This document shows, piece after piece, positions 2,597 to 44,674 of a stretch of 64,000 nucleotides of DNA. A model generated the notes under the pieces. The model ran no database searches. It was not told where the DNA came from and saw only the letters and a program-made list of their open reading frames with translations. Numbering within the stretch: the first letter of the stretch is position 1; each line of letters begins with the position of its first letter. A program made the position numbers and the translations under genes. This DNA is from Enteroscipio rubneri (lineage in GTDB: Bacteria > Actinomycetota > Coriobacteriia > Coriobacteriales > Eggerthellaceae), in the NCBI RefSeq assembly GCF_002899715.1, contig NZ_PPEK01000001.1:248001-312000 (forward strand), given 5' to 3'.

Positions 2597-3149
2597 TCTG
2601 GAAAGATAGCTACGAGGGTATGACTCTAATTATTGTGTCGAGGGACTTTGTTGGAGCGGAAAAGCGTCTGTCACGTTTTCGGTAATCAAAACGAAGGACA
2701 TACTATCTTTTTGTTGTTGAATCAATTGTGATCGTTTGCAGATGAGCCGGGAGGGCATCGCGTTCGCAACATAGGAGATTCTGGAGCGTTTGCGGCGAAT
2801 GCAGTTGCGTATCCTGCGAGCAGAAGGACAAGCGCTCCCGAACACTGAGCGGTTACGGCGAACGTGTAAACGACGTGCTTGACGGTGCTCAGGTTCGTGC
2901 ACGAATGCCAAAAACTGAGCAGCGCAACGGCCGCACGCCTCCTGCGAGCCGTTTTGGGCTCTGTTCACACGAAAAAGGGGGCGAAACCGGGCTAATTCCC
3001 CCCAAATGGGTGATAGGTTTTTTGTTCCCCCAGCGCTAGTATGCATGTGGTACAGTGCTTGTGTTTCCGCATGGGGCCGAATTCGGTACCGGCGCGAAAT
3101 AAAAGCCGAAGATTTTCAAGACGAGATGTTTGAAAGGAGGTTAGAGAGC
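2597..3149. other. Degenerate spacer between mobile remnants and core genes
   Basis: No intact gene is visible here. The stretch holds the tRNA-like core at 2749-2770 and, on the minus strand at about 2790-2960, a stop-bounded run of codons reading like a membrane segment (Q-C-S-G-A-L-V-L-L-L-A-G-Y-A-T-A-F-A-A-N). That run may be the tail of a lost multi-TM protein. Base composition rises to the genome norm from about 2760 onward. The last 100 bases must carry the promoter of the cytochrome gene, but I cannot place it securely. Confidence 0.35.
2749..2770 (+). repeat. Second tRNA-Ala-like core (possible att remnant)
   Basis: These 22 bases match the D-arm to anticodon-loop portion of the tRNA fragment at 1533-1554 with two differences (A to G twice). 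They include the CGTTCGCAAC anticodon-loop segment. The match ends abruptly after the loop and no T-arm follows. It may be a degraded attachment core from an earlier integration in the same tRNA gene. Confidence 0.4.
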
Positions 3150-15291: not shown

Positions 15292-16254
15292 TCAGTCGAC
15301 CACGTTCTGCGGCTTTCCTTCGACGAAGGCTCCCACGTTTGCGGCGACGGTGGCCAGCAGGCGCTCCCGTGCCTCGTGGGTGGCCCAGGCGATATGGGGC
15401 GTGATCACGATGTTCATGCCCTTCGCCTGCAGAAGCGGGTTGTCGGGGCGCATGGGTTCCGCCGACACCACGTCGGCGCCGAAGCCGGCCAGCTTGCCCG
15501 AGCGCAGCGCGTCCACGACCGCCTGCTCGTCCACGAGGGTGCCGCGTGCGGTATTGAGCAGGAAGGCGCCGTCCTTCATGCGCGCGAGCGTCGCGGCGTT
15601 CATCATGCCTTTTGTATCGGGCGTGGCGGGTACGTGCAGCGACACCACATCCGCCACGGCCAGCAATTCACCGAGGTCCACTTGGCGCACGTCGTCGCCT
15701 TCCAGCTGAGGCTTGGGCGAGCGGTTCTCGAACACCACTGGCATGCCGAACGCGCGCGCGATGCGACATACGGCTTGTCCAATACTGCCCATTCCGACGA
15801 TGCCGAACGTCCTGCCCGCCAGCTCCACAAGCGGCGTGTCCCAGAACGAGAAGTCTTTCGCACGCGTCCAGGCGCCGTCCATGACGAGGCTGGAATGCTT
15901 GCCTACGTGCAGGCACAGCTCCAGCAAGAGCGCAAATGTCATCTGCGCCACATCGGGAGTGGAGTAGGCGGGCACGTTGGACACCACGATGCCTCGCTCA
16001 CGCGCCGCGTCAAGGTCGACCACGTTGAAACCGGTGGACGTGAGCGCAATCATCTTGAGGTGGGGCGCCCATGCGAGCGCTTCGGCGTCCCAGGCGATCT
16101 TGCTCGACACGGCGACGTCGGCATCGACCACGCGAGCGGCAAGCTTTTCGCGCGGCGTGCGATCGTACACGGTGACGTTCCCGTAGCGCTTCAGCGCGTC
16201 CCAGCTCAGGTCGCCGGGATTGTTCACGTATCCTTCGAGGACGACGATGTTCAT
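15292..16254 (-). CDS. D-2-hydroxyacid dehydrogenase (glycerate dehydrogenase/hydroxypyruvate reductase type)
   Basis: This is a 320-residue NAD(P)-dependent enzyme that interconverts a 2-oxoacid and its D-2-hydroxyacid. The Rossmann motif G-M-G-S-I-G lies at about 150-155, and the catalytic set is Arg in T-A-R-G-T-L-V, Glu in S-A-E-P and His in T-P-H-I-A-W-A. The order N-terminal flavodoxin-like half, NAD domain, C-terminal return is normal for the family. The start at 16254 has AGGAGG five bases upstream. A longer frame upstream has no SD and runs through the small RNA gene. Hydroxypyruvate, glyoxylate or a related acid are plausible substrates; sequence alone does not choose. Its own promoter is marked separately. 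Confidence 0.88.
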   Translation of the reverse strand: MNIVVLEGYVNNPGDLSWDALKRYGNVTVYDRTPREKLAARVVDADVAVSSKIAWDAEALAWAPHLKMIALTSTGFNVVDLDAARERGIVVSNVPAYSTPDVAQMTFALLLELCLHVGKHSSLVMDGAWTRAKDFSFWDTPLVELAGRTFGIVGMGSIGQAVCRIARAFGMPVVFENRSPKPQLEGDDVRQVDLGELLAVADVVSLHVPATPDTKGMMNAATLARMKDGAFLLNTARGTLVDEQAVVDALRSGKLAGFGADVVSAEPMRPDNPLLQAKGMNIVITPHIAWATHEARERLLATVAANVGAFVEGKPQNVVD

Positions 16255-16291
16255 AGAGCCTCCTGTCATCGGAATCGGCGTTTGAAGCCAG

Positions 16292-16300
16292 ATTCTAGCA
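16292..16300 (-). promoter_or_regulatory. Extended -10 promoter of the dehydrogenase gene
   Basis: On the minus strand TGCTAGAAT (extended -10, hexamer TAGAAT at 16297-16292) lies 38 bases before the start codon. It is downstream of the small RNA terminator, so the dehydrogenase does not depend on read-through from that RNA. Confidence 0.55.
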
Positions 16301-16364
16301 TGCGTCCGGTGCGCGGTTCGAGCTGCGGAGGGCGAGTTGCCGGCTGGGAGCGAATTCGTCGCCG

Positions 16365-16496
16365 AAAATGAGATCGGCCCGGGGAGAGGGGAGCTCCACC
16401 GGGCCACAAGGAGGGGATGTGCGGTGTCGTAACACCGCTTCTGCTTTAAGGGGTAAGCAGAAACAAACTGAAAGGAGGGGATTCTTTCGTTTGCTG
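16365..16496 (-). ncRNA. Candidate structured small RNA, copy A (C-rich loops)
   Basis: A TATACT -10 box (16507-16502, minus strand) is followed by about 130 bases that fold into four or five hairpins. Hairpin 1 is GAAAG/CTTTC with loop AATCCCCTC. Hairpin 2 is TTCTGCTT/AAGCAGAA with loop ACCCCTTA. Hairpin 3 is GCGGTGT/ACACCGC with tetraloop TACG. A short CACA/TGTG hairpin has loop TCCCCTCCT. A terminator GGCCCGG/CCGGGCC follows, leading into GATCTCATTTT. A second copy at 19482-19601 keeps the same order. Hairpin 3 is GCGACGC/GCGTCGC with TTCG there, so base pairs covary while a UNCG loop is kept, which also fixes the strand. The C-rich loops resemble the anti-SD CCUCCUUU of 16S rRNA. The function is probably post-transcriptional; it is not a family I recognise. 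Confidence 0.7.
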
Positions 16497-16501
16497 TAGC
16501 C

Positions 16502-16507
16502 AGTATA
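16502..16507 (-). promoter_or_regulatory. -10 box of small RNA copy A
   Basis: TATACT on the minus strand is followed by GGCTACAGCA; copy B has TATACT followed by ACAGCA. The region just upstream (GTCAA versus GTGAA) is also similar between copies. No consensus -35 is seen. The 305-base stretch from 16497 to 16801 holds no gene besides this promoter. Confidence 0.5.
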
Positions 16508-16801
16508 AAGCTTGACATTGCAGATGATATGTGCAAGCCATGCATGTTTTGTGAATTGCGGGGCTTGAAAGTAACAAATAGGTAAATTCCGGTATCACTG
16601 CAAAGCCGCTGATCGATTGGGCAAATAGAAACAATCGGCACCGTCGATTGAACGCGACATCCACGGTGAACGGGAAGGAGCCAGGACGGGATCGGCAAAA
16701 GAAGCGAGCGGCATCAAACCTTCGAAGCGCCAGTGCTTTTCAAAAAAGAGGCGTCGTTTCAGGACGGGTTGAGCGCGTGGCGGCTTTGCGCATTCGGGCA
16801 T

Positions 16802-18091
16802 TCAGGCGCCCAGCGTACCGCGGGCGTTCCACAGCGCCTTGGCGATGCCGGACACGAAGGCGTCGTTTGTCTCGCTCTCGGGAACGTCGGTCATGATGGT
16901 CATCAGATAGGCCCGATCGCCCTCGACGATGATGCCGGCATCGATGGTGGCGTTCGTATCCTCTCCGCTGATCCAGCCGGCCTTGTCATACACCGTTATA
17001 GGCTCGCTCGGCTCTTCGATGGCGATGCTGTAAGCTTCGTAGGCGCTATCGGCTGCGGAGAGCACGCGCTCTGCTCCCTGCGAGCTTTCGTCGATCGAGA
17101 TTGCAATTTCAGCCCCGTCTTCCTTCGGCGCGACGGCATCCCTAATCATGGAGCGCTCCGTGCTGCCCAGGAGCTGCTGCGCCCACTCCACGATCTCAGG
17201 ATCGCCTGACTCGAGGTACTGGTACGCGTTCATCCAGAGTTTGAGCGAGTCGCGCGGCGTGTAATGGGGAAACGCGGTGTCGTTGGCAAGGCTCGGATCG
17301 ACGTTCAGGTTCGAAAGCCAATGCTCGAGGCTGACCGAGCCGTATCCGTCGCATGCCCGGCGGAGCCGATAATACGACGTATTGTCGGACCAGGTGATGG
17401 TGTCGGCGGCAAGCTGGTCGATGGAGGAGATGGATCGGTTTCCCGGTTCGAGAACCTCCTGGCATGCGTAGATGAAGAACGGTCCCTTGAACGACGAGGC
17501 GCCGTACAGTTCGGCATCGATATTGTACGCGTAGCCGCTGCCTGTTTGCAGATCGAAGAAGCAGAACCCGACGGTGCGCTCATTGTAGGAGAAGGGAAGG
17601 AGCGCCGCTTCGAGAGAGATATGCTGGCCGGGCTCAAGCGAAGGGGTATGACCCGTGCCTTCGGCTGCAAGGGAGAATCCTGTTATGTTCGTGCCGGGAT
17701 CTGCAATGGCGTCGAGGCTCTCGATAGAGGGCGCGTATTCGGCAGTCGAAGCGGGCTCGCTTTGCGCATCCTCCTCTTCGCTCGAGAAAAGCGGGCCGAC
17801 CAAGCCGCTTTGGTCTGCCGCGGCGCTTTCTGCCGAGAGCAAGACTCCTGGGACGACGAAGACACCCAATACGACGACGAGCGCGCCGACGGCAGCAAGC
17901 GCGAGGGGCCGAGGTATGCGCGACCAAAAGGAGGCCGTCTGGTGCGAACCGATGTATACCGGTGCGGCGCCCATCGGCCGCATCGAGACACGTGGGAGCT
18001 CGCCGCGCACCCGACGCGGGCGGCGCATATTCGCATGTGGGGTTCGCATGTCCCGCCTGGAAGAGAATCCTGATGTCGTTTTGTCACGCAT
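16802..18091 (-). CDS. Exported serine hydrolase of the beta-lactamase/D,D-peptidase fold
   Basis: This is a protein of about 429 residues with a basic cytoplasmic N-terminus, one TM/signal-anchor helix (about 64-86), a low-complexity acidic linker and an extracellular domain. That domain shows the three landmarks of class A beta-lactamase-like enzymes: S-S-F-K (SxxK, catalytic Ser and Lys), S-D-N (W-S-D-N-T) and a KTG-like D-K-A-G-W near the C-terminus. Such proteins cleave beta-lactams or act on peptidoglycan stem peptides. Replacement of KTG by KAG makes classical beta-lactamase activity uncertain. The start is not secure: ATG 18091 lies close behind a TGCTACC -10-like sequence and has no SD, so the mRNA may be leaderless; ATG 18052 is an alternative. 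It is monocistronic on the minus strand. Confidence 0.7.
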   Translation of the reverse strand: MRDKTTSGFSSRRDMRTPHANMRRPRRVRGELPRVSMRPMGAAPVYIGSHQTASFWSRIPRPLALAAVGALVVVLGVFVVPGVLLSAESAAADQSGLVGPLFSSEEEDAQSEPASTAEYAPSIESLDAIADPGTNITGFSLAAEGTGHTPSLEPGQHISLEAALLPFSYNERTVGFCFFDLQTGSGYAYNIDAELYGASSFKGPFFIYACQEVLEPGNRSISSIDQLAADTITWSDNTSYYRLRRACDGYGSVSLEHWLSNLNVDPSLANDTAFPHYTPRDSLKLWMNAYQYLESGDPEIVEWAQQLLGSTERSMIRDAVAPKEDGAEIAISIDESSQGAERVLSAADSAYEAYSIAIEEPSEPITVYDKAGWISGEDTNATIDAGIIVEGDRAYLMTIMTDVPESETNDAFVSGIAKALWNARGTLGA

Positions 18092-18207
18092 GCGTACACG
18101 GTAGCATGCATATTTGCGATAATGCAACGGTTCGGAAGCCGAACGGCTCAAACCGCCCGCTCGATCCGATGGTTGGTCGGCGATTCCAGCCCGAATGAGG
18201 GCGGCGG

Positions 18208-19344
18208 CTACGAAGCGCCTGCGTGCGCCTGTTCGTCGTCGCATGGCGCGTCGCACGCGATGCCTGCGGCTATGGGCACATGCGCCTCTGCCGCCGCTGC
18301 ATTCTCCAGATCGCGTGCGCCTCTGCGCAGATACGCGCGCAGCGCCCCAAGTGCCGCCGTCTGCTCGGGGGCAAGCCGGCCGCTTGCGCGGTTCCGCTTG
18401 ACGCTCGCCCAAAGCAAACCCAGGAAACGCGCTACGACGACGGAGATGATGGCGGTTGCCAGCAGCAGCTGCACGCCGGCGAGCTGCTGCGCCGCCCAGG
18501 CTGCGCCCGAGTATCCGGCGGCGGCGAAAGCGGACGCGAACCGGTCGGTCGCCAGCAGCCCCACGGCCATGGGGAACGTCATGCCCGCATACCCCGGATG
18601 AAACGCGACTGAGAAAAACTTCGGCAGCTTGGCCACGACGTACACGAGCGATGCGGCGACGCAGGCGAACAGCGCTGCCACGATCGGCAGACACGGTTCT
18701 GTGAACGCGTTCACGTACGAGACCAGGCACATACTGCACGGCCCGAGCATGATGGCCTGCGAATGCATTGCAGCTTCAGCGACTTCGCAGCGTCTCATGC
18801 GCCACAGCATGAACGGCGTCACCGCCAGATAGATGCCGATGCCCCAGACCACGATTCCGGCTGCAAGCGGTTCGGGCATGAACGCCATCCCTGCAACCGT
18901 GGATACCATGACGCCGTTCGTGGTGACGTACCAGCTGGGCATGAACGTCTTCCATTCGAAGCGCTTCACGAAGAAGCGCACGAAGAACACCGCCACATGG
19001 GCGAACAGGAGCGCCAGCATCGCGAAGAACACGATCTTGAACGCCGTCCAGGCGCCGGGTGCTATGCTCGCCCCGTAGGCGCACAGCACCATAACGAGCA
19101 TAGGGAGGGTGGGGTAGAGCGCGGCGAGCATGGGGTTTGCGTACTCGGCCGCCACGACGCTTTTCAGATGGAACGCGATTTTCAGGCAGTATGCCAACGC
19201 GACGACGGCCGCAGCCAGTGCGGCGACTGCGTGCACGAGCGGGAAGCCGAGCGAGTCGTAATATCCGCTCAGCACGAGCAGGCCGAGCGTGGCCGGAACC
19301 GCCGGCAGCGGCAGCCGGGAGACGGCTTCCTGTATGTTCGTCAT
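18208..19344 (-). CDS. TDT-family (TehA/SLAC1-like) membrane transporter
   Basis: This is a 378-residue membrane protein with about ten TM helices. It resembles the tellurite-resistance/dicarboxylate transporter (TDT) family, whose members include the anion channel TehA and C4-dicarboxylate or sulfite exporters. Helix-rich blocks are separated by short loops, with an Arg-rich loop around 190 (R-M-R-R-C-E). An extra cytoplasmic tail of about 50 residues is rich in Ala, Arg and acidic residues. GAGGAGG lies eight bases before ATG 19344, and a TACTAT -10 box is found 35 bases upstream. The transported ion or acid cannot be told from sequence. The gene lies directly downstream of small RNA copy B, just as the dehydrogenase lies downstream of copy A. 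Confidence 0.75.
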   Translation of the reverse strand: MTNIQEAVSRLPLPAVPATLGLLVLSGYYDSLGFPLVHAVAALAAAVVALAYCLKIAFHLKSVVAAEYANPMLAALYPTLPMLVMVLCAYGASIAPGAWTAFKIVFFAMLALLFAHVAVFFVRFFVKRFEWKTFMPSWYVTTNGVMVSTVAGMAFMPEPLAAGIVVWGIGIYLAVTPFMLWRMRRCEVAEAAMHSQAIMLGPCSMCLVSYVNAFTEPCLPIVAALFACVAASLVYVVAKLPKFFSVAFHPGYAGMTFPMAVGLLATDRFASAFAAAGYSGAAWAAQQLAGVQLLLATAIISVVVARFLGLLWASVKRNRASGRLAPEQTAALGALRAYLRRGARDLENAAAAEAHVPIAAGIACDAPCDDEQAHAGAS

Positions 19345-19377
19345 AAACCCTCCTCAACGCTGCTCTGTCATTCGCTC

Positions 19378-19383
19378 ATAGTA
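19378..19383 (-). promoter_or_regulatory. -10 box of the TDT transporter gene
   Basis: On the minus strand GTGTACTATG contains the hexamer TACTAT (19383-19378). It lies between the terminator of small RNA copy B and the transporter start, indicating separate transcription. Confidence 0.45.
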
Positions 19384-19481
19384 CACCCGGCAGTTCCGCT
19401 GCGCGGCGGAACGGCCGAGAAGCTTAGGCGCGCGTTCGCCCGCAAGCTCGCAGCGGGGATGCGGAATCGCATATGCGGAGA

Positions 19482-19601
19482 TAAAAGAACGGCCCGGGGA
19501 GAGGGGAACTCCGCCGGGCCACAAGGAGGGGGTGCGACGCCGAAGCGTCGCTTCTGCTTGTACAGCAGGCAATCGAAGGGAGGGGGAGTCGTTCGACTGC
19601 A
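19482..19601 (-). ncRNA. Candidate structured small RNA, copy B (C-rich loops)
   Basis: This is a paralogue of the RNA at 16365-16496, same strand and same order of elements. After TATACT (19613-19608) come four elements. Hairpin 1 is TCGAA/TTCGA with a loop containing CTCCCCCTCCC. Hairpin 2 is CTGCT/AGCAG. Hairpin 3 is GCGACGC/GCGTCGC closed by the TTCG tetraloop. A CAC/GTG hairpin has loop CCCCTCCTT. A terminator GGCCCGG/CCGGGCC follows, leading into GTTCTTTTATC. The segment from CTCCTTGTGGCCCGG through CCCCGGGCCG is almost identical to copy A, while hairpins 1-3 differ in sequence but keep their pairing. Conservation of structure over sequence is strong evidence for a functional RNA. No open reading frame of note occurs in it. 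Confidence 0.7.
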
Positions 19602-19846
19602 TGCTGTAGTATAGAAGTTCACGTTGGAAAACCTATGATCGCCCCATGTGCGTCTTGTGTAACGGGGCCGAACCGTCGGTGAGCGAGAGCGGAATCGCCG
19701 CCGGCGCATGAGCCCCGCCTTGGAGATGGTGCGCAGCGCGATTGCGGTTCTCGAACCCATGCCGAGCTTGGTTCGCGGGCTCTTGTCGAAAGGGCGCGCG
19801 CTGCTTCGTTCTTTTGGTATGATGTCAGCCGAGGAAAGGATTGGAT

Positions 19847-32494: not shown

Positions 32495-35400
32495 GTGATA
32501 CGTATGAGCATGCTGGAGAAACTGTGCGATGCGAGGAACACGTTCGAGGGCAAGGCGCTGGCCGTCTTCATGTCCTTGGTGATGGCATTCTCCTTCATCA
32601 ACCTTTCTTCCTCCGCCGATGCGGCTGAGACCGGCGCGGCGTCCGAGGCTTCTGAGGCTCAGGTCGATAATTCGTCGAGCGAGTCCGCCGAAGCTCCGGC
32701 ACCCGAATCCGCCCCCGCGGCCGAGTCCGAGGCGGCCGCCCCGGCTGAGGCGCCGACGGCTTCCGAGCCTCCCGCGCAGAACGAGACGGCCGTCCCGCCG
32801 ACGTCCGAGCCTGCAGCCGACCTTCCCACCGCCGAACCCGGCGTGGCCGTGGTGAGCCTGGACTTCGCGCATGCGTACATCACGTACGCTGGTCAGGACA
32901 TCATGCTGCCCACGAAGTCGTTCAATTTCCCCCTGAGCAAGGAGCTGGCGTTCAAAGCCGGCGCCGATACGGGCTATGAGGTGGGCGCTGTGATGGCCGT
33001 CGTGAGCGGCGTGGAAACCGAGCTGGCCGCCGACGAGCAGACCGGCGAGTACAAGGTTCCCGCCGACCAGGTGACCAGCAACCTCACCCTCAAGGTGGAG
33101 GGCAGGGCGGTCGAAGCCGAACTCGACGCCCCCGAGGACACCGCTGCGGAGCCGATAACCTCCGACACGAAGATCGAGAGCGAAGAAGCTGCCGAAAGCG
33201 AAGGCGAAGCGCCTTCCGAACACGATGACGCCGCCGGCATCGAAGCCGACGCGAGCCGCCCTGCGTTCGAGGGCTACGCTCAAGCGGGCGACGTGCTTGT
33301 GAAAGTGACCGCTCCCGAAGGAGCGCTGCCCGAGGGAACCACGGTGCAGGCGATCCAGATCACCAGTCCGGCCGTGATTGATGCCGTCGAGGCTACGGTC
33401 GAGGATCGGGGCAAGGCGCTTGAGGACGCGCGTGCCATCGACGTGACGCTCCTCGGTCCGACGGGCAACGTCATTCAGCCGGATGCCGCCGTGAACGTCT
33501 GCTTCTTCAATGCCGGCATCGAGGGCGAGACCATGGGCGTGTACCATGTGGCCAACGACGGCTCGAGCGTCGACTTCGTTTCGGCCCGCCAAGCCGATGC
33601 CGCCGCGCAAAGCTTCGACGTGAGTCACTTCTCCATCTATGTCGTGACGGCCGAGGGGTCGCCGCGACTCGCCACCTACAACTTCTACGGCACAGATGGC
33701 ACGACGCTGGTTGATCGACAGATCGTGAGGACCGGTGACACCCTGTACGAGCCCGAGCCTCCCTCCGTTGCCGATGGCGAGAGCTTCCACGGCTGGTATG
33801 CAAAGAACGGTACCGAATGGGCAGATAGATTCGAAGATTTCGGCGAGCAGACGGTTGGCGAAACGGCTACGTACAACCTGTACGCAAAGGCTTCCGAAAC
33901 GTTCTACGTGCACTTTATGGACGAATCGGGAGAACGCGTTTTTGCTACCAAGTCGGGGGCTTCCGGAGACGTGGTGCCGGTTGACGTCACGCTTCCCCTT
34001 GGTCCTGATGAAAGCGTGACGGGGTGGTACGCCGATGCGGATCTCTCGCACAAGGTCGATTCCGTCGAGTTGAAAGATGCGAACGTCACGCTTTATCCCA
34101 AGGTTGAAAAAGGCACATGGTTGACCTTCGATGCCAGGGGCGGGTCGTATACGGAGCCGGAATTCGTAGGTGTGGCGGGCACTTCAACCGAACCTGCCGA
34201 GCCGACTCGCGCGGGTTACGTTTTTGCGGGTTGGTACGACAACGATTCGTGCGAAGGGGAAGCCTATTCATTCGGCGGCGTGCTTCAACGGGATACAGCG
34301 CTCTATGCGAAGTGGGAGCCGGCTGAAGCGGGTTATCGCGTCGTCGTGTGGCTGGAGGGAGCCGATTCGACGGTTGATGCGGTGCAGTACGACTATGTGA
34401 CCACCCTCGACTACAAGGGCAAGACGGACGAGTCCGTCGCGCTTCCCACTGCCACGGAGATCAAGGAGGCTGTTGGGACCTTCGCAATTGCGCAGAAGCA
34501 TATTCTCGACGAAGTTGACGCTTCGAGCGATACGGCGGTGACGGTCAAGGGCGATGGCTCTGCGATTGCCAACGTATACCTCAATCGCGCCGAATACACC
34601 ATCGATCTGCGTTGCACGGAAAAGGAAGTCGTCGGCACCAAGGCAGACTATACGGACTCTTACCCTATCAAGGCGAATTACGGAGCTGATATCTCCAAGT
34701 TGTGGGGTAGCGCATCGAACGAGATTAAGGCTAAGTACGGAGATCGCGTTTGGGTTGAGAAGCTGGCGAATATTGGAACGAACGGCAATCCCGTTATCGC
34801 TCCTTTCCAGACGATGACCCAAAACAAGGTTTTCTACTACGTCCGGAATGGCTTCAAGCTGCATTATCTGGAGATCAAAGTTGAGAAGGTCGGCAATACC
34901 AAGCCCATATTAAAAACCAATCCTAATGACTCTCGCTACCACGATGGCTATCGATACGCTTGGGAAGAGGATGTTCCTTCCATATTCGAGGTTCAAAACA
35001 CCATTTTGTTCAAAGCGGATGGCGTTCATGCGCAGCCGTCCAACTACGCGAACGCCCTCAACGGATTCGAATGGGTTGGGGCCGATCTTGCGTTTGAATA
35101 CGGATTTTTCCAGCCGGGGGGCAAGTATGGGCAGAAGTACGTCGCCCGCCAGTACTTCCAAAGGAAATCGTACACCATCACGTTCAACAACGGTAGCTCG
35201 GTAAGCCAGAGCAAACCCATCAAATACGGTTGGTCTATCGAAGGCGAGGGCGCGGAGCCGAGCGCTGCCGATGCCGGCATGCCGGAAGGCTCGAAGTTCG
35301 AGGGCTGGTACACGTCGCCGATGTACTCGGAGGAGACGAAGTACGACTTCGACGATGCTACCATGCCGGCGCAGAACCTGGTTCTGTACGCGAAGTGGAA

Positions 35401-38400
35401 GCTTCCGACCTACCAAGTTACCTTCTACAAAAACATGGAAGGCTCTGCAAAAGCCGTTACCAGCGATGTTGATTATGGGGAATCGGTGGTTGAGGAACCG
35501 TCTTCGATCGCCGACGTTCCCGAGGGCTACAAATGGATCGGGTGGATGACGCGCTCTGGCTCTGACGGGGATTACACGTATCTGCCCTTCAGCTTCTCAT
35601 CCCGGGCCTTTGGCGCTATCGAGCTCTATCCTTACTACATTAACAACGAGAGCCGCTCGGTGCGCTACGATGCGAACGGCGGTGTCGGCGCGGTGCCGAC
35701 GGACGAGCTCAAGTATGCGCAGGGCAGCTTTGCCGAAGTTGCGAAGAGCGAGCTGACGCCGCCTGCCGGTCAAGCGTTCCTCGGATGGAGCATTCATGCC
35801 GATGGCAGCGGCGTGAGGCACTACCCTGGCGACTTGGTGCAGCTTGGCGGATCGGACATCACGCTGTATGCGCAATGGGGACAGCCGGCTCCTCGCACGT
35901 CGCTGACTTACGATGTCAACGGCGGAAAGGGCGATACCGCCACCATCGCTTCTATTGCCAACAACGACGAGGTAACGCTCAAAACGGCGGAAGAGCTCGG
36001 CTTCGAGGCTCCTCGGCCCGGCGTTCATTTCGCAGGCTGGAACACCGAGCCGAACGGCACGGGGGACTCGTTTGCCGGCGGCTCTGCTGTGAGAGTCGAC
36101 CTCGAAGGGAGTGCGAACGTCCTGTACGCCCAGTGGGCTCTTGACGACGATACCCCGTATGCAGTCGAGGTGTACTACGAGGTTGACGGCAGCTATGGTC
36201 AGCCTGATGTCCAGCAGGGCGTCGGCACGACCGATGCCAAAGTTTCCGTGAGCGCAGCCGACTACGCCAAGACCGGATATACCTTCGACGAGTCCGCTCC
36301 TAATAAGCTCGAGGGCGCCATCGAAGGCGACGGTTCGCTCGTGCTCAAGGTGTACTTCAAGGAGAACACGGCTTTGATTGCCTATCGAGCCACCGAGGGC
36401 GGCAGCGTGTCGCGAGAAAGCGAGACGCTGCGAGCGGTCAGCGGTGAGGCCAAAGGCTCGAATGCCCAGCCTGATCCGAAGACGGATGCTGATCTTGGCT
36501 ATTACTTCGCAGGTTGGAGCGTGGGCGATTCTTCCGAGATCGTTTCATGGGAGCCTGAGCTCGACCGTGCCGCTGTCGAGCGTTTCGCGAAGCATGACGG
36601 GGCGTTCGAGTCCACCACGTTCACTGCCCATTTCGCTGCCAAGAAGGAGCTCGTGATCATCTCGAAATCAGACGAGTTCGTTTACGATGGAACCGAAAAA
36701 ACCGCGAGCAATACGGTGTTCGAAGGCGACGAAGGAGTGAACGTCGCCAATGTCGATGCGCGCACGACAGAAGTGGATGTAGGCGACTATCCGGTGGAGT
36801 TCTACAACCAAGACAAAATAAGAATTTTCGAGGACAGGACCGGAAAAGACGTGACTGACCGCTATGTGGTCAAGTACGTCAAGGGCACGTTGACAATCAA
36901 GCCTGCTACTCTCAAGGTGACGACGTTCTCTGCCTCCAAGACCTATGACGGTGCCCCTCTCACGGCTTCCGGCACGATGACCGGCTTGGTGAACGGTGAA
37001 ACCGCCGCTTTCACCACCACCGGCACGGCCACCGAGGTCAATGCGCCCACAGGCACGCAGAACACGTACGATATCGACTGGAGCGGCAGCGCCAAGGAAT
37101 CCAACTATAAGGTTGAAGCGGATATCGGCACGCTGATGGTGACCGAGTACGACAAGCCGATCGTCGTCACCACCGTCGGCGGCATCTTCACCTACAACGG
37201 CGAACCTCATGGCGCCGACGTCACGGTTTCCGATTTGCCCGCAGGCTACTGGAAAGAGACTGCCGCTTCGAGCGCTTCGGCCACCGACGTCACGGCCAGT
37301 CCTGTCGCGGCGACCGCCGACAAATTGGTCATCCGCAATGCTTCCGGCGTCGATGTGACCGACAGGCTGAACATAAGGAGGATCGACGGACAGATCGAGG
37401 TTACGCCGGCTCCGCTCAGCGTGAGGATCGTGGGCAATTCCGCCGTTAAAACCTACACCGGCGAAACGTTCACGGTTGACGACTTCACTGCCGAGCCCCT
37501 CATTGAAGGCAAAGCCGAAATCACGCTCAAGGACGGCGCGGCCGCTCATGCCGAGGGCGTTGATGCCGGAACCTATCCCATGGGCCTCGCGCCCGACAGT
37601 TTCGAGGTGCGGTCGAAGAACTACAACGTGACGTTGACGGTGGTGGACGGCTTTTTGCGCATCGAGCCAGCGGGGAAGATGTCCGTTTCGGCCAGCGACG
37701 TGGAAAAAGTCTATGACGGAAACCGCTACGGCGTGAAGGCCGAGGCCTCGGTGGAGGGTGCGACGATCCGCTACCGCGATCCGGTTACGGGCGAGTACAA
37801 CCTGGAGGATTCGCCGACGTTCCTCGATTGGACGGACGGTCCGCGAACGGTAGAGTTCCAGGCGACCCACCCGAACTACGAGACGGCGTACGGCACCGCC
37901 AGTGTCACCATCAACAAGCGCGCGGTGACGCTGACCAGCGCCGACGCGGTCAAGTCGTACGATGGGACCGCGCTGCTCGCCGAGCGCGTCGTCGGGGACG
38001 TCGATTTCGCTGCCGGCGAGGGCGCCACGTATTCCGACTTCGCGTCGCTGATCGATGCGGGCACGACGCCCAACACCTTCACCTATCGTTTTAACGAGGG
38101 TACGAAGGCTGCAAACTATATTGTGAAGAGCACCTTCGGCACGCTCGAAGTGGAGAAAGTCCCGTTGGCTGTCACGGTGACGGGCAACCAGGCTGCAGCC
38201 GCCTATGACGGCGCGAGCCACCTCGCCGAAGGCTACGTTGTCGACGGCGCCGACGGCAAGGCCGAAGTCGCGCTGCGGGACGGCGTGCTCGCCCGCGCCG
38301 AGGGCGTTGATGCCGGAACCTACCCCATGGGCCTCGTACCCGACAGTTTCGAGGTGCGGTCGAAGAACTACAACGTGACGTTGACGGTGGTGGACGGCTC

Positions 38401-39541
38401 GCTGTCGGTGGCGCCTGCGACGCTGCTCATCTCGGCCAACGATGCGAGCAAGAAGTACGGGCAGGTTGATCCTACGTTGACGGCATCGGTGACGGGCCTG
38501 GTTGGGGGCGACTCCTTCTCCGGTTCGTATAATGTGACGCGCGTCGCGGGCGAGTCGGTCGGCACGTACGCGATAGCCGTCGAGAACGCAATCTCGGGCG
38601 ATCCGAACTACGTGGTCAAAGTCGCCCCGGGTTCCTTCGCCATCGTTTCCGCCGATGCCGTTTCTCTCGTGGTAGGCGGAGGCACGAAGGTCTACGATGG
38701 CACGCCGTTGGTGCCGACGGGCTTCACGCCATTCGGTTTGGCCGATGGCGATTACGCAGAGGTGGTGTACAGCGGTTCGCAAACCGATGCCGGCTCGAGC
38801 GTCTCAAGCCTCGCGAGCTACGTTATCCGCAACGCCGCGGGCGAGGATGTGACAGCCAACTACAGGACCGTCAACGTGGTTCCCGGCGATCTGACCGTGA
38901 TGGCGGCGGCTGCCACGATCGTCGTGGCCGATGCGGCTAAGGTGGCTGGCGCGGCTGATCCGACGTTCACCGGTACGGTGACGGGCCTCGTTGACGAGGG
39001 AGACCTCGGGCAGGTTGCCTATGCCCGCTCGAACGGCGACGAGGCTCCCGGAACCTATGTCGACGTGCTCACGGCCTCCTTCACCGACAATCCGAACTAC
39101 GCGGTAACGGTCGTTCCCGGCACGTTCACCATCACGGCTGCCCCGGCAGTTCCTCCTACGCCGGTCACGCCGACGCCCGGCACGCCGACAGCTCCTCCGA
39201 CGCCGATAGGCACCGTTCCCGACGGTCCGCTCGCTCCAATTATCACACCCGTTGTCGAGGCTCTCGAGGACGCCGTCACACCGCTCGCAGGCCCGCAGGA
39301 AGAGACGATCGACGACAACGAGAATCCGCTTGCAGGTTTCGATACGGTGCAGTGTTGGGTGCATTACTACCTGATCCTGGGCATCATTGTCACGGTGATC
39401 TACGGAGTTGGCGTGCTCGTACGGCGCATCAACTTCACGCGTAAGCTCGAAGATTTCGAGGACGACGTGCTTGGCGTCGCAGACGATCCGGCCAACGAGC
39501 CGACGCAGGCCCCGATCGCGGCTGAAGGCAAGGAGGCCTAG
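32495..39541 (+). CDS. Giant surface adhesin with InlB-type and MBG/YDG repeats
   Basis: This is a 2348-residue exported protein. A signal peptide (about 10-46, ending A-D-A-A) is followed by an Ala/Pro/Glu-rich region to about 120. Mixed domains and at least five InlB B-repeat-like units come next, between about 394 and 1383 (W-Y/W-N segments each closing with Y-A-K-W or Y-A-Q-W). A long array of MBG/YDG-type beta repeats then runs from about 1385 to 2210 (K-T-Y-D-G, V-Y-D-G-N and K-S-Y-D-G starts; A-N-Y/P-N-Y ends), followed by a Pro/Thr linker. The C-terminus has D-D-N-E-N-P-L-A-G, a Cys, a TM helix (about 2290-2311) and a 37-residue tail; no LPXTG is present. It is probably a cell-surface adhesin. 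GTG 32495 has GAGGA close upstream; ATG 32504 is an alternative start. Confidence 0.85.
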   Translation: MIRMSMLEKLCDARNTFEGKALAVFMSLVMAFSFINLSSSADAAETGAASEASEAQVDNSSSESAEAPAPESAPAAESEAAAPAEAPTASEPPAQNETAVPPTSEPAADLPTAEPGVAVVSLDFAHAYITYAGQDIMLPTKSFNFPLSKELAFKAGADTGYEVGAVMAVVSGVETELAADEQTGEYKVPADQVTSNLTLKVEGRAVEAELDAPEDTAAEPITSDTKIESEEAAESEGEAPSEHDDAAGIEADASRPAFEGYAQAGDVLVKVTAPEGALPEGTTVQAIQITSPAVIDAVEATVEDRGKALEDARAIDVTLLGPTGNVIQPDAAVNVCFFNAGIEGETMGVYHVANDGSSVDFVSARQADAAAQSFDVSHFSIYVVTAEGSPRLATYNFYGTDGTTLVDRQIVRTGDTLYEPEPPSVADGESFHGWYAKNGTEWADRFEDFGEQTVGETATYNLYAKASETFYVHFMDESGERVFATKSGASGDVVPVDVTLPLGPDESVTGWYADADLSHKVDSVELKDANVTLYPKVEKGTWLTFDARGGSYTEPEFVGVAGTSTEPAEPTRAGYVFAGWYDNDSCEGEAYSFGGVLQRDTALYAKWEPAEAGYRVVVWLEGADSTVDAVQYDYVTTLDYKGKTDESVALPTATEIKEAVGTFAIAQKHILDEVDASSDTAVTVKGDGSAIANVYLNRAEYTIDLRCTEKEVVGTKADYTDSYPIKANYGADISKLWGSASNEIKAKYGDRVWVEKLANIGTNGNPVIAPFQTMTQNKVFYYVRNGFKLHYLEIKVEKVGNTKPILKTNPNDSRYHDGYRYAWEEDVPSIFEVQNTILFKADGVHAQPSNYANALNGFEWVGADLAFEYGFFQPGGKYGQKYVARQYFQRKSYTITFNNGSSVSQSKPIKYGWSIEGEGAEPSAADAGMPEGSKFEGWYTSPMYSEETKYDFDDATMPAQNLVLYAKWKLPTYQVTFYKNMEGSAKAVTSDVDYGESVVEEPSSIADVPEGYKWIGWMTRSGSDGDYTYLPFSFSSRAFGAIELYPYYINNESRSVRYDANGGVGAVPTDELKYAQGSFAEVAKSELTPPAGQAFLGWSIHADGSGVRHYPGDLVQLGGSDITLYAQWGQPAPRTSLTYDVNGGKGDTATIASIANNDEVTLKTAEELGFEAPRPGVHFAGWNTEPNGTGDSFAGGSAVRVDLEGSANVLYAQWALDDDTPYAVEVYYEVDGSYGQPDVQQGVGTTDAKVSVSAADYAKTGYTFDESAPNKLEGAIEGDGSLVLKVYFKENTALIAYRATEGGSVSRESETLRAVSGEAKGSNAQPDPKTDADLGYYFAGWSVGDSSEIVSWEPELDRAAVERFAKHDGAFESTTFTAHFAAKKELVIISKSDEFVYDGTEKTASNTVFEGDEGVNVANVDARTTEVDVGDYPVEFYNQDKIRIFEDRTGKDVTDRYVVKYVKGTLTIKPATLKVTTFSASKTYDGAPLTASGTMTGLVNGETAAFTTTGTATEVNAPTGTQNTYDIDWSGSAKESNYKVEADIGTLMVTEYDKPIVVTTVGGIFTYNGEPHGADVTVSDLPAGYWKETAASSASATDVTASPVAATADKLVIRNASGVDVTDRLNIRRIDGQIEVTPAPLSVRIVGNSAVKTYTGETFTVDDFTAEPLIEGKAEITLKDGAAAHAEGVDAGTYPMGLAPDSFEVRSKNYNVTLTVVDGFLRIEPAGKMSVSASDVEKVYDGNRYGVKAEASVEGATIRYRDPVTGEYNLEDSPTFLDWTDGPRTVEFQATHPNYETAYGTASVTINKRAVTLTSADAVKSYDGTALLAERVVGDVDFAAGEGATYSDFASLIDAGTTPNTFTYRFNEGTKAANYIVKSTFGTLEVEKVPLAVTVTGNQAAAAYDGASHLAEGYVVDGADGKAEVALRDGVLARAEGVDAGTYPMGLVPDSFEVRSKNYNVTLTVVDGSLSVAPATLLISANDASKKYGQVDPTLTASVTGLVGGDSFSGSYNVTRVAGESVGTYAIAVENAISGDPNYVVKVAPGSFAIVSADAVSLVVGGGTKVYDGTPLVPTGFTPFGLADGDYAEVVYSGSQTDAGSSVSSLASYVIRNAAGEDVTANYRTVNVVPGDLTVMAAAATIVVADAAKVAGAADPTFTGTVTGLVDEGDLGQVAYARSNGDEAPGTYVDVLTASFTDNPNYAVTVVPGTFTITAAPAVPPTPVTPTPGTPTAPPTPIGTVPDGPLAPIITPVVEALEDAVTPLAGPQEETIDDNENPLAGFDTVQCWVHYYLILGIIVTVIYGVGVLVRRINFTRKLEDFEDDVLGVADDPANEPTQAPIAAEGKEA
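37551..37651 (+). repeat. Adhesin internal repeat, copy 1
   Basis: This 101-base segment recurs at 38298-38398 with three differences. It encodes the end of one MBG repeat. Identity at DNA level between otherwise diverged repeats points to recent duplication or gene conversion. Confidence 0.8.
38298..38398 (+). repeat. Adhesin internal repeat, copy 2
   Basis: Second copy of the 101-base segment at 37551-37651, 747 bases apart (a multiple of three), so recombination between the copies would delete 249 residues in frame. Confidence 0.8.
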
Positions 39542-40151: not shown

Positions 40152-40473
40152 ACGCGACAGTGGCCTCGTTAGGCACTCCGGCGAACCAATCGACGCCCCC
40201 TCGACCGAGGGGGCGTCGCCCGTTATGGCGGGGTCGCAGGTTCTTGGGCGAAGCGCTTTGCGTCGACGGCAATGCGAGCGGAGCGCATCCGCTTCAAGTC
40301 GCGTCGCTTGAAATCAGGCCGACTCGGCGATCTCGCAGACTTTACCCGAATTTGACCGGCTTGCGACGGCGCTTTGATGCTTGGTGCCCATCATGTTCTC
40401 CAGTGCTCCTTCCGCTCGAAGGGGCGCGTCGAATGTATGGGAGCGCCCTGAGGGGCTGCGAGGAAGGAAGAGC
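40152..40473. other. Intergenic region upstream of pstS
   Basis: It contains the adhesin-operon terminator and about 250 bases of leader with no convincing gene. I looked for a PhoB box (tandem CTGTCAT-like direct repeats) and do not see a clear one. Confidence 0.4.
40192..40217 (+). terminator. Terminator of adhesin operon
   Basis: GACGCCCCCTC (40192-40202) and GAGGGGGCGTC (40207-40217) form a perfect 11-bp stem with loop GACC. No long T-run follows. Confidence 0.65.
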
Positions 40474-41400
40474 ATGAAGAAGCGTTTGACGATGATCGCG
40501 ATGGGAGCCGTGCTTGCGCTCGGTGTGTTCGGTCTCATGGGCTGCGCAGGCGGCGGGAACGAGGGATCCGCCGACGAGCGCGGCGGAGAGTCGGGCGGAA
40601 CAGCTGCTGCTCCCTCGGGCCAAATCTCGGTGTACTCGCGCGAAGACGGCTCCGGCACCCGCGGCGCGTTCATCGAGCTGTTCGGCATCGAGGAGAAGGA
40701 CGCGAGCGGCGAGAAGGTGGATATGACCACCCCGTCTGCGGCCATCACGAATTCCACGTCGGTCATGATGACGTCGGTGTCCGGCGACGAGAACGGCATC
40801 GGCTACATCTCGCTCGGCTCGCTGAACGACACGGTGAAGGCGCTCAGCATCGACGGCGCCGAGGCGACGGCCGAGAACGTGAAGAGCGGCGAGTACAAGG
40901 TGGCACGTCCGTTCAACATCGTGACGAAGGACGGCGTGTCCGACGTGGCCCAGGACTTCATCGACTTCATCATGAGCGCCGAGGGTCAGAAGGTGGTTGA
41001 GGACAACGGCTGCATCTCCGTGGCTGACAACGCGGGCTCCTACACGGCTTCCGGCAAGTCCGGCAAGATCGTCATCGCCGGTTCTTCGTCGGTGACCCCG
41101 GTCATGGAGAAGCTGTCCGAGGCGTACCAGGCCCTCAACCCCGACGTCACCATCGAGGTCAACCAGTCCGACTCGACCACCGGCGTGAACATGGCCGCCG
41201 AGGGAACCTGCGACATCGGCATGGTTTCTCGCGAGCTCAAGGACTCCGAGAGCAGCGTAAAGGCTACGGTCATTGCGCAGGACGGCATCGCCGTCATCGT
41301 GAACCCGGGCGCGTCGCTGGACAACCTGACGTCCGACCAAGTGAAGGGCATCTACACCGGCGAACTGACCACCTGGGAAGATATCGTTCCGTCTGCGTAG
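40474..41400 (+). CDS. pstS: PstS phosphate-binding lipoprotein, permuted domain order
   Basis: This is a 308-residue lipoprotein that captures phosphate for the Pst ABC importer. The signal peptide ends in the lipobox L-M-G-C (Cys at about 24). The mature part has two lobes in swapped order. First comes the S-R-E-D-G-S-G-T-R-G-A-F block (about 54-65), which in classical PstS lies in the middle. The V-I-A-G-S-S-S-V-T-P block (about 203-212) and Q-S-D-S-T-T-G-V, normally N-terminal, come afterwards. Both contain the Ser/Thr/Asp residues that bind phosphate. The start at ATG 40474 has AGGAAGG upstream. It heads pstSCAB, with a hairpin after it that may set a higher level of this protein. Confidence 0.88.
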   Translation: MKKRLTMIAMGAVLALGVFGLMGCAGGGNEGSADERGGESGGTAAAPSGQISVYSREDGSGTRGAFIELFGIEEKDASGEKVDMTTPSAAITNSTSVMMTSVSGDENGIGYISLGSLNDTVKALSIDGAEATAENVKSGEYKVARPFNIVTKDGVSDVAQDFIDFIMSAEGQKVVEDNGCISVADNAGSYTASGKSGKIVIAGSSSVTPVMEKLSEAYQALNPDVTIEVNQSDSTTGVNMAAEGTCDIGMVSRELKDSESSVKATVIAQDGIAVIVNPGASLDNLTSDQVKGIYTGELTTWEDIVPSA

Positions 41401-41448
41401 CAGCCGCCGGAAGCGCTCGACGCTGCGAGGTGCCGATACACTCCGCCT

Positions 41449-41477
41449 CGCCCCTTTTCGCTGCGCGAAACGGGGCG
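41449..41477 (+). other. Hairpin between pstS and pstC
   Basis: CGCCCC-T-TTTCGC pairs with GCGAAA-C-GGGGCG around a TGC loop. Such structures after the first gene of an ABC operon often protect the upstream mRNA or limit read-through. Confidence 0.6.
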
Positions 41478-41530
41478 ATTCGGGGCCTCTTCGGCGCCTC
41501 TCGCTGACTTTGCCAAACCAAGGAGTTTTC

Positions 41531-42391
41531 ATGTCCCACCCGCATATCAAGGAAGGCATCGCGAAGGCGCTGTTCGTGGGAGCCGCGGGGATTTCGATCA
41601 TTGCGGTCGCCCTCATCTGCGTCTTCCTGTTCGCCAACGGCGTGCCGGCCATCGCGCAGATCGGCCTGCCGGAGTTCCTCTTCGGCACCACGTGGCGGCC
41701 GGCCAACGACATCTACGGCATCTTCCCCATGATCATCGGCAGCATCTACGTGACGGGCGGCGCCATCGTCGTGGGCGTGCCCACGGGCCTTCTGTGCGCT
41801 ATCTTCCTCTCGCGATTCGCCAGCGGAAAGATCGCAGCCGTGCTCAAGCCCGGCGTCGAGCTGTTGGCCGGCATCCCGTCGGTCGTGTACGGCTTCTTCG
41901 GCCTCGTGCTCATCGTGCCGTTCATCCGCGCGAACATGCCGGGCAACGGCCTGTCGCTGCTGGCGGCAGCCGTGCTGCTGGGCATCATGATCCTGCCCAC
42001 CATCATCACCGTGGCGCAGAGCGCGCTCGATGCTGTGCCGAAGAAGTACTACGAAGGTGCGCTGGCGCTGGGAGCCGACCACGAGCGCTCGGTGTTCCGC
42101 GTCATCGTGCCCGCCGCCACCTCCGGCATCATGGCCGGCGTGGTGCTGGGCGTGGGCCGCGCCATCGGCGAGACGATGGCCGTCATCATGGTGGCCGGCA
42201 ACCAGCCCCTCATCCCCGAGAGCATCTTCAACGGCGTGCGCACCATGACGGCGAACATCGTGCTGGAAATGGGCTACGCGGCCGACCTGCATCGCGGCGC
42301 CCTCGTGGCCACCGGCGTGGTGCTGTTCGTGTTCATCCTGCTTATCACCATGCTGTTCAACGTCATCAAGAAGCGAGGTGAGATGAAGTAA
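41531..42391 (+). CDS. pstC: Phosphate ABC transporter permease PstC
   Basis: This is a 286-residue membrane subunit of the phosphate importer with six TM helices. The cytoplasmic EAA-type loop that contacts PstB reads E-G-A-L-A-L-G-A-D (about 176-184), and the preceding A-G-I-P-S-V-V-Y-G-F-F-G motif is typical of Pst permeases. The early segment F-L-F-G-T-T-W-R-P (about 53-61) is the PstC-type W-x-P signature. AGGAG precedes ATG 41531. Its stop overlaps the pstA start by one base. Confidence 0.94.
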   Translation: MSHPHIKEGIAKALFVGAAGISIIAVALICVFLFANGVPAIAQIGLPEFLFGTTWRPANDIYGIFPMIIGSIYVTGGAIVVGVPTGLLCAIFLSRFASGKIAAVLKPGVELLAGIPSVVYGFFGLVLIVPFIRANMPGNGLSLLAAAVLLGIMILPTIITVAQSALDAVPKKYYEGALALGADHERSVFRVIVPAATSGIMAGVVLGVGRAIGETMAVIMVAGNQPLIPESIFNGVRTMTANIVLEMGYAADLHRGALVATGVVLFVFILLITMLFNVIKKRGEMK

Positions 42392-43356
42392 TGAGTCCGA
42401 AGCTCACCATAGCCTACGAGGCCGGTTCCGCCCCCGCGGCTCCTACCGATTCCGACGACCGCATCGATGCCCTGTTCGCCGTTGCGGAAACGCGCCAGCG
42501 CAAAACGCGCCGCGTCGTGTCGGCGCTGCTGCGATCGCTCGTGTACCTGGGCGCGCTGATCACCACGGCGGTGCTCCTGTTTATTGTGGGATACATCCTG
42601 GTCAACGGCGTGCCGTACCTCACGCCGAGCCTGTTCGCCTGGGAGTACACCTCCGACAACGTCTCGCTCATGCCGGCGCTCGTCAACACGCTGCTCATGG
42701 CGGCGCTCTCGCTGGCCCTCGCGGTGCCCGTCGGCGTGGGATCTGCCATCTACCTGGTTGAATACGCACCGCGCGGCAGCCGTTTCGTCCAGATCGTGCG
42801 CACCACCACCGAGACGCTGCAGGGCATCCCCTCCATCATCTACGGCCTGTTCGGCATGCTGTTCTTCGTGACGGCGCTGCACTGGAACCTGTCGCTCATG
42901 GCGGGCGCGTGCACGCTGGCCATCATGGTGCTGCCCGTGGTCATGCGCACCACCGAGGAAGCGCTCATCGCCGTGCCCGACGCCTACCGCGAAGGCGGTT
43001 TCGGCTTGGGCGCGGGCCGTTTGCGCACGGTGTTCCGCTGCGTGCTGCCCTCGGCGGTTCCCGGCATCCTGGGCGGCGTCATCCTGGCGCTCGGCCGCTG
43101 CGTGGGCGAGGTGGCAGCCCTCATTTTCACGGCGGGCTCCATCGCCCAGATCCCGAACTTCCTCGAGCAGGGCGGCATGGCGCTGTTCGACTCGACGCGC
43201 ACCCTGGCCGTGCACATGTACGTGCTGGCCAGCGAAGGCCTGCATGTGAACGAAACGTACGCAACGGCGGTGGTGCTGCTGGTCATGGTGGTGCTGCTGA
43301 ACCTCCTGGCCACGTTTGCCGCGAAGAAGATGAGCAAAGGAAACCAAGATGACTAA
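42391..43356 (+). CDS. pstA: Phosphate ABC transporter permease PstA
   Basis: This is a 321-residue second permease subunit. About 45 residues of polar N-terminus precede six TM helices. The motif [12 protein letters not shown] (about 146-157) and the EAA-type loop [10 protein letters not shown] (about 197-206) pair with those of PstC. ATG 42391 shares a base with the pstC stop (TAATG) and the gene overlaps pstB by eight bases, so the three are translationally coupled. Confidence 0.94.
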
Positions 43357-44224
43357 CGCTACCGTAGAGAAGACCACGACGCGCGCCGCAGTCCCCGCGA
43401 CCGCGCACACCTACCTGCCGCAGGCTCGCGTGCGCACGGTCGAGCGCAGCGGCCGGCAGGCTCCCGCCGATGCGCCTGTGAAGATGGGCGTGCGCAACCT
43501 CGACCTGTTCTACCAGGACTTCCACGCGTTGAAGGGTATCAACCTGGAGTTTCCTCAAAACCAGGTGACGGCGCTCATCGGCCCGTCGGGCTGCGGCAAG
43601 TCCACGCTGCTGAAAAGCCTCAACCGCATGAACGACCTCGTGGCGGGCTGCCGCGTCGAAGGGGAGATCACGCTCGACGGCGAGGACGCCTACCGCTCAC
43701 TCGACGCGAACAGCCTGCGCCGTCGGGTGGGCATGGTGTTCCAGCAGCCCAATCCCTTCCCGATGAGCGTGTACGACAACGTGGCATTCGGCCCGCGCAC
43801 GCACGGCATCAAGAACCGCGCCGACCTCGACGTCATCGTGGAGCAGAGCCTGCGCGACGCCGCCATCTGGGACGAGCTGAAGGACCGTCTCAAGAAGAAC
43901 GCGCTGGGCCTGTCCGGTGGCCAGCAGCAGCGCCTGTGCATCGCTCGCGCATTGGCCGTGCGCCCCGAGGTGCTGCTCATGGACGAGTCCACGAGTGCGC
44001 TCGACCCCATCTCCACCGCGAAGATCGAGGATCTCGTGGGCGAGCTCAAGAGCAAGTACACGGTGATCATGGTGACGCACAACATGCTGCAGGCGCTGCG
44101 CGTGTCCGACAAGACCGCGTTCTTCCTGCTGGGCGAGATGGTGGAGGCCGGCGACACCGACGATATCTTCACGAGCCCCGCCGATCCGCGCACCGCGGAC
44201 TACGTCGCCGGAAGATTCGGATAG
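43349..44224 (+). CDS. pstB: Phosphate ABC transporter ATPase PstB
   Basis: This is a 291-residue ATPase of the phosphate importer. Walker A is G-P-S-G-C-G-K-S-T (about 79-87), the signature is L-S-G-G-Q-Q-Q-R (about 189-196), Walker B is V-L-L-M-D-E-S-T and the H-loop is V-T-H-N-M. The Q-loop Q-Q-P-N-P-F-P-M-S is exactly the PstB type. A non-conserved N-terminal extension of about 50 residues precedes the ABC domain; a shorter form could start later but no SD supports it. No phoU follows, which is unusual. Confidence 0.94.
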
Positions 44225-44674
44225 GATACTGCGAGCTGGCCGCGCGAACCCGTGCAGCGGAAGTGCGCTTGTCGTGCAGCGGAAGTGCGCTTGTGCGCGC
44301 TGTTGCACGAGCCAGGTCGTCGAAAGGACCTTTTCCGCGAGGCCTGCGGTTCTTCCCTCGTCCGATGGGTCTTTCCGGCAACAGTCATCGCGCACTTTAC
44401 GCAAATTTGATCGGCGCGTTGCCCTACGTCTGCGGCGGCTGCTTTACAATGATCCGAAACGATGTGCAGTATGAAACCGAGTGGCATTGGTTGATGATCG
44501 ACCGGCGAGAGGAGCCAGGCCGTCCGGGGTTGGCGTCGGAAGTTGGCGCCCGAGGATGCCCCGCCGTGCTGCCGACGCATTTCCGTACGCGAGGGCAGTG
44601 CGAGGAGTAAGATCGGGCGCCCTGGCCGGTCGCAGCGCCAACCGTGTGCCGCTCGGAGAACAGCGGAGCCAAGC
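44225..44674. other. Intergenic region between pstB and response regulator
   Basis: These 450 bases contain the 22-base tandem duplication at 44251-44294 and, near 44450, a TTTACAATG -10-like site. No gene with an SD and sensible composition is visible, so phoU is genuinely missing here. Confidence 0.45.
44251..44294 (+). repeat. Exact 22-base tandem duplication
   Basis: Two adjacent identical copies (44251-44272 and 44273-44294) contain GCAGCGGAAGTGCGC. The duplication begins about 27 bases after the pstB stop. Probably replication slippage. Confidence 0.8.

Follow-up and report, generated by a model that had tools for sequence, protein, structure and literature searches.

C-loop small RNAs of Eggerthellaceae, probable repressors of respiratory and transport genes under two-component control

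The window analysed here, a 64,000-nucleotide stretch of the Enteroscipio rubneri genome, holds a phosphate transport cluster, pstS-pstC-pstA-pstB, at about 40474-44224 (pstA and pstB are named by our own reading of the ORF translations) and a response regulator/kinase pair at 44675-45367 and 45426-46808. Its first 2000 nucleotides have a G+C content of 43%, against about 60% elsewhere in the window, and are a possible acquired segment. On the plus strand, 32495-39541 is an ORF of 2348 codons that apparently encodes a large surface protein; its many repeats look InlB-like and MBG-like. On the minus strand lie two copies of one small RNA family, A and B, with the parts listed below.

16365-16500, minus: copy A, with its 5' end at about 16497-16500 and its 3' end in a T-rich tail at about 16365; 150 bits with covariance model R1
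16463-16494, minus: hairpin 1 of copy A, loop AAUCCCCUC at 16475-16483; two-sided changes in 11 of 11 pairs
16439-16462, minus: hairpin 2 of copy A, loop ACCCCUUA at 16447-16454; from predicted fold and covariation
16421-16438, minus: hairpin 3 of copy A, with a short loop that has no C run; from predicted fold and covariation
16406-16420, minus: single-stranded linker of copy A, ACAUCCCCUCCUUGU, the most conserved element and the preferred predicted pairing site
16376-16405, minus: hairpin 4 of copy A, the putative terminator, loop CUCCCCU at 16387-16393, then a T-rich tail; from predicted fold and covariation
16502-16507, minus: -10 box of copy A, TATACT (44 of 80 copies; TATAAT in 30)
16516-16556, minus: promoter array of copy A, four CA spaced 11 bp apart where a -35 box would stand
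16571-16586, minus: PHO-box-like 11-bp repeat upstream of copy A, TTTACCTATTTGTTAC; the pattern occurs in 14 of 80 copies
19480-19607, minus: copy B; 87 bits with model R1 at 19482-19603
19578-19588, minus: C-rich loop region of hairpin 1 of copy B, CTCCCCCTCCC
19521-19533, minus: linker of copy B, ACCCCCUCCUUGU
19491-19520, minus: putative terminator hairpin of copy B, with a C-rich loop
19608-19613, minus: -10 box of copy B, TATACT
19622-19662, minus: promoter array of copy B, CA at 11-bp spacing
40341-40356 and 44396-44411, plus: the 11-bp direct repeat TTTACnCnAATTTGAY, present twice, first upstream of pstS and then upstream of the response-regulator gene

The minus strand of copy A is predicted to form four hairpins in succession, with a single-stranded linker before the last, and has a fold z against shuffles of -6.1 (plus strand, -3.9); copy B reaches -6.7. 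The C-rich words that the initial annotation had listed are all present on this strand, TCCCCTCC twice, ACCCCTT and CTCCCCTCTCCC in copy A and CTCCCCCTCCC, CCCCCTCCTT and TTCCCCTCTCCC in copy B, as is its example of a strong Shine-Dalgarno (SD) sequence, AAAGGAGG, at 3133-3140. That these words lie in loops holds generally, but of the two TCCCCTCC in copy A the second (about 16410-16417) falls in the linker that separates hairpin 3 from the terminator hairpin, and in the predicted fold of hairpin 1 only AAUCCCCUC is exposed, the adjoining CUUUC being stem-paired. The word CCCCTCC by itself is not enriched in the window (12 seen, 8.0 expected; 12 of 100 shuffles reach 12). It is its placement, not its count, that departs from chance, because both copies fold far better than shuffles and C-rich sites are unpaired beyond them: in 40 homologues the mean unpaired probability of these sites is 0.86, against 0.68 in shuffles.

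Copies A and B belong to a family of small RNAs of about 120-148 nt, present in one to four copies per genome. Of 60 relatives searched at the DNA level, 16 gave matches, and covariance models were built from 12 sequences (R1) and from 98 matches (R2). Within the window's taxonomic family, R1 matches 101 of 138 genomes, spread over 37 of 48 genera, and the other 37 genomes give no match; across the order 81 of 297 genomes match, nine of these lying outside the family. With R2, 105 of 396 genomes match across the class, all within the same order, and 12 of 396 across the phylum, all within the same family. Several weak matches outside the family still have a CGCAUCCCCUCCUUGUAGG-like linker and a hairpin that resembles a terminator. 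The exact 21-base core returned 18 stretches, from Eggerthella sinensis, Gordonibacter, Paraeggerthella, Rubneribacter, Adlercreutzia and other Eggerthellaceae. We rejected a phage-borne origin because a 20-base core, searched as an exact word, occurs in 0 viral contigs. The copies are arranged in tandem clusters; loci such as L005, L022 and L063 show up to four per genome, often within a few kb. Clustered copies differ in their 5' halves while linker and terminator loop are near-identical, which looks like repeated duplication that included the promoter array. An Rfam search of the copies and 20 homologous loci gave no family at its threshold, and a literature search found no small RNA family of Eggerthella and relatives. 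The main text of a survey of human-microbiome RNA candidates names neither Gordonibacter, Coriobacteria nor Eggerthella, and its supplementary candidates may include the RNA unnamed (PMC8040213).

Judged by covariation, the structure of the family is under selection. Over 86 distinct rows, all 37 of 37 pairs have changed on both sides, and, in an alignment itself fitted to the model, 95.7% of cells are paired, against 79.2% in shuffles and 35-44% in slid controls; fold z is -2 or lower in 40 of 40 RNAs tested. Taken as a whole, unpaired columns barely exceed paired ones in conservation (1.21 vs. 1.17 bits), and the best conserved bases of the 80 full-length copies (1.6-2.0 bits) are the cores of loop 1, the linker and the terminator loop, the linker stretch CCCCTCCTT reaching 1.7-2.0 bits per base. 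In the predicted folds of the same 80 copies, CCC[CT][TC]C sites have an unpaired probability of 0.87, against 0.44 over all bases. Several copies, copy B included, lack the C loop of hairpin 2, and the last 10 nt of the 80 copies average 5.3 T. By these models, the most conserved and most exposed bases of the family are those complementary to SD sequences. Three CCCTC are present in 54 of 80 copies, and several near-identical motifs on one scaffold, in multiple copies per genome, are also the anatomy of titrating RNAs, the repeated C-rich segments acting as a sponge for a C-rich-binding protein or for G-rich RNAs other than ribosome-binding sites. We regard such titration as rather improbable, given that the linker extends the motif to an SD-matching CCCCUCCUU at 1.7-2.0 bits, beyond the need of a simple C run; pairing with SD sites is the reading we prefer.

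The initial annotation had proposed that the RNAs mimic the anti-SD sequence of 16S rRNA. This stands insofar as the conserved, exposed bases are SD-complementary, but the RNA is not an exact copy of the tail. The 16S 3' end of this genome is GGATCACCTCCTTTCT; the RNA motif UCCCCUCCUU, perfectly complementary to AAGGAGGGGA, differs by one base from the tail's CACCUCCUU, and within UCCCCUCC the RNA has a near-invariant C at the position where 16S has A. Because of this C, the RNA is predicted to prefer GGAGGGG sites and to have no advantage at GGAGGUG. At GGAGGGG sites the predicted duplex energy of the linker averages -22.2 kcal/mol, against -15.6 for the 16S tail, an advantage partly due to how the sites were chosen; at 16S-perfect GGAGGUG control sites, likewise partly by construction, the values are -17.4 and -18.6 kcal/mol. 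A general brake on translation, in which the RNA would mimic the 16S tail and compete at most SD sites instead of a subset, accords with the linker pairing at -12 kcal/mol or better with 22 of 47 ORF starts of the window (chosen for SD strength), compared with 103 of 600 random 28-mers. We think it improbable all the same, as the near-invariant C weakens relative pairing to GGAGGUG and favours GGAGGGG, the class of sites to which we assign the RNA.

Sites of this class, sought as AAGGAGGGG-N2-9-ATG, occur 115 times in eight genomes, against 18 for the reversed pattern. With 10 antisense to the RNAs and one double count left out, 104 were translated, and 88 lead ORFs of at least 60 codons; the 16S-perfect control word AAGGAGGTG gave 108 sites and 91 such ORFs. 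Orthologues recur in eight clusters for the test word (23 of 88 members) and in 11 for the control (40 of 91). Since the control recurs no less, recurrence is no evidence of selection for pairing, and we rejected target-site conservation as proof of it. The kinds of gene do differ between the two sets, transporters and reductases at GGAGGGG sites versus ribosomal proteins at 16S-perfect ones. Among the matches listed (25 of 72 families in each case), the 84 test proteins include at least six of DcuC/YfcC type, five molybdopterin oxidoreductases, five FAD_binding_2 proteins and three amino-acid permeases, and the 81 control proteins at least eight ribosomal L10, seven S6 and three L24; respiratory families also appear in the control set, with at least two DmsC and three Fer4 among the matches listed. 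GGAGGGG SD sites precede a YfcC-like transporter in six of the eight genomes, an arginine-ornithine antiporter in three and a NapA-like reductase in three. In the window's own genome, seven of nine test sites lead ORFs of at least 60 codons. These encode a NapA-like reductase, two DMSO-reductase-like proteins, a YfcC-like antiporter, a NarL-like regulator, a glycosidase-like lipoprotein and a squalene/phytoene-synthase-like protein, all identities lying below NCBIfam cut-offs with queries limited to 330 residues.

In the promoters of the family, the -10 box fits TATAMT in 74 of 80 copies (six have other forms), and the 80 upstream regions aligned on it share TTCACAAaACg..CAc......CATA....TTCAA. 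CA stands at -46, -35, -24 and -13 in 84, 90, 91 and 82% of the 80 copies, with three or four CAs in 72, two in one and none in seven; as a direct-repeat period, 11 sums to 3.47 and every other period from 6 to 19 to at most 1.9. The array pattern occurs 22 times in seven genomes, 15 of these at RNA copies; two look-alike matches, in two genomes, sit at an infA-like region (the gene name is our own reading) and not at an RNA copy. A standard TTGACA-type promoter was rejected, a consensus scan of 16200-19800 having found no such sigma-70-type promoter at copies A and B. At loci L015, L083, L069 (1166-1291) and L071 (1190-1318) the -10 box is present and the CA array is not, and these copies may have a different regulator. 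Direct repeats with an 11-bp period are the form of OmpR/PhoP-type operators: Mycobacterium tuberculosis PhoP is reported to bind TCACAGC repeats with a 4-bp spacer, three or four repeats better than two (PMC4832192), and PHO boxes are described as 11-nt direct repeats (PMC4415409). Given the period of the CA array and these precedents, an OmpR/PhoP-type response regulator is the likely activator of the RNA promoters.

A second 11-bp repeat suggests a link to phosphate. Upstream of pstS, all eight genomes have TTTAC-N6-TTGAY or a close variant (the strict form in six), and the window has just two strict repeats, one upstream of pstS (40341), the other upstream of the response regulator (44396); TTTACnCnAATTTGAY is a likely PHO box of Eggerthellaceae. 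We rejected the CA array as the pst operator, its core not being found upstream of pst, where the cluster and the response-regulator gene share TTTAC-N6-TTGAY instead. A similar repeat lies upstream in 14 of 80 RNA promoters, that of copy A included (0.002 expected per 75 nt), in 11 of the 14 at -79 from the -10 box; the copies being related, these may represent one or a few events. In seven of the eight genomes the distance between pstC and an RNA copy or cluster is about 20-35 kb; in the eighth the two are on different contigs.

About 110 bp beyond the end of copy A a 2-hydroxyacid dehydrogenase gene begins, and copy B is followed after about 140 bp by a SLAC1-family gene. Both genes are on the same strand as the RNAs, an arrangement that a cis-acting leader or attenuator of the next gene would show. 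We reject this very improbable reading because the neighbours are not constant: the next ORF is on the opposite strand in 26 of the 63 copies that have one within the flanking DNA analysed, the largest groups of similar downstream ORFs have six to eight members by crude ORF calling, and the copies stand in tandem with one another. That the plus strand is the functional one, AAGGAGGGGATG being the ribosome-binding site and start of a small ORF, is highly improbable and was rejected: GGAGGG is closely followed by ATG antisense to 58 of 80 copies, giving a 10-codon ORF at copy A by our own reading, yet antisense ORF length is not conserved (4 to 451 codons, median 19), and it is the minus strand that has the promoter, the terminator tail and the stronger fold. 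Read on the plus strand, the linkers (16406-16420 and 19521-19533) give AAGGAGGGGATG or AAGGAGGGGGTG, which looks like a perfect ribosome-binding site and may mislead gene callers into false small ORFs.

We consider it reasonably probable that these are free-standing, trans-acting small RNAs with a regulator-driven promoter, which place a C-rich motif on GGAGGGG SD sites and repress the mRNAs that carry them. The sequences show the family and its distribution, its structure, the exposure of the motif in predicted folds and the promoter and terminator signals; transcription, pairing, repression, targets and regulator are what we infer from them. Each RNA would be transcribed from its own promoter, probably turned on by an OmpR/PhoP-type response regulator, and would end at its own terminator. 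The variable stems would present several copies of one exposed C-rich motif, the best of them the linker CAUCCCCUCCUUGU, and its pairing with G-rich GGAGGGG-type SD sites would block 30S loading. The mRNAs so repressed would form a set concerned mostly with anaerobic respiration and amino-acid transport. Redundancy would come from the presence of several motifs in each RNA and of several RNA genes in each genome. Repression through C-rich loops is reported for the analogous RNAs NfeR1 (PMC10746234) and B11 (PMC10470900). A further step, which we offer tentatively and think unlikely, is a split SD code, with ribosomal-protein mRNAs using GGAGGUG, and respiratory and amino-acid transport mRNAs using GGAGGGG, read less well by 16S and perfectly by RNAs under two-component, perhaps phosphate, control. 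If true, one signal would silence catabolism and spare ribosome synthesis.

Among known RNAs, the alphaproteobacterial ar14 (RF02344), NfeR1 in Sinorhizobium, shares with the family several hairpins that each expose the same SD-complementary C-rich motif on divergent stems. The NfeR1 motifs are reported to be redundant in target silencing (PMC10746234); NfeR1/ar14 is the kind of redundant anti-SD small RNA to which we liken the family (PMC10746234, PMC3927594). It is also the best sub-threshold Rfam match of copy B (25.6 bits against a gathering score of 58.8; E 0.054), and 20 homologous loci gave no match to it at E ≤ 1. However, ar14 has three hairpins, each with an identical CCUCCUCCC left unpaired, whereas the RNA here has UCCCCUC(C), none in hairpin 3 and the best one in the linker, and alphaproteobacteria are another phylum. 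A further analogue is 6C (RF01066), B11 in mycobacteria, an actinobacterial small RNA with C-rich loops, of six and seven C in B11, which pair with ribosome-binding regions, either loop reportedly sufficing (PMC10470900). At E ≤ 0.001 it matched 0 of 41 genomes, the window's own included, in a search of limited sensitivity, as the control matched only in Corynebacterium glutamicum, below the cut-off; the window region gave no match at E ≤ 10. Where 6C has two hairpins whose loops contain about six or more C in a row, the RNA here has UCCCCUC loops on four hairpins plus a linker, and its C runs are interrupted by U and so read as an SD complement. With model thresholds failing and motif and layout different, the family, as judged by sequence, belongs to neither ar14 nor 6C. 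C-rich loops are also a feature of the cuckoo/CcsR RNAs of Rhodobacter and relatives. These small RNAs, too, occur in multiple copies (PMC10253847). CcsR1-4 arise by processing of a single precursor, which they share with a protein gene, in contrast to the copies here, each with its own promoter and terminator signals. In the Firmicutes RNAs RsaE and RoxS, an unpaired UCCC pairs with SD regions, which is a likeness to the RNA here. Firmicutes small RNAs with such motifs had been cited at the outset as the precedent; it is less close than ar14/NfeR1 or 6C, and the RsaE/RoxS Rfam model gave no match in the copies or homologous loci searched.

The family looks like one more, apparently independent, case in which a scaffold for the display of SD-complementary C-rich motifs was invented. 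How such RNAs choose their targets becomes testable here by comparing the constant C with the A of 16S, and genetic tools for E. lenta exist (PMC9734109). Eggerthella and its gut relatives attract study for their metabolism of drugs, polyphenols and arginine. The strongest predicted pairing sites lie at the kinds of gene that run such metabolism: molybdenum reductases, flavoproteins, and arginine-ornithine and YfcC-type antiporters.
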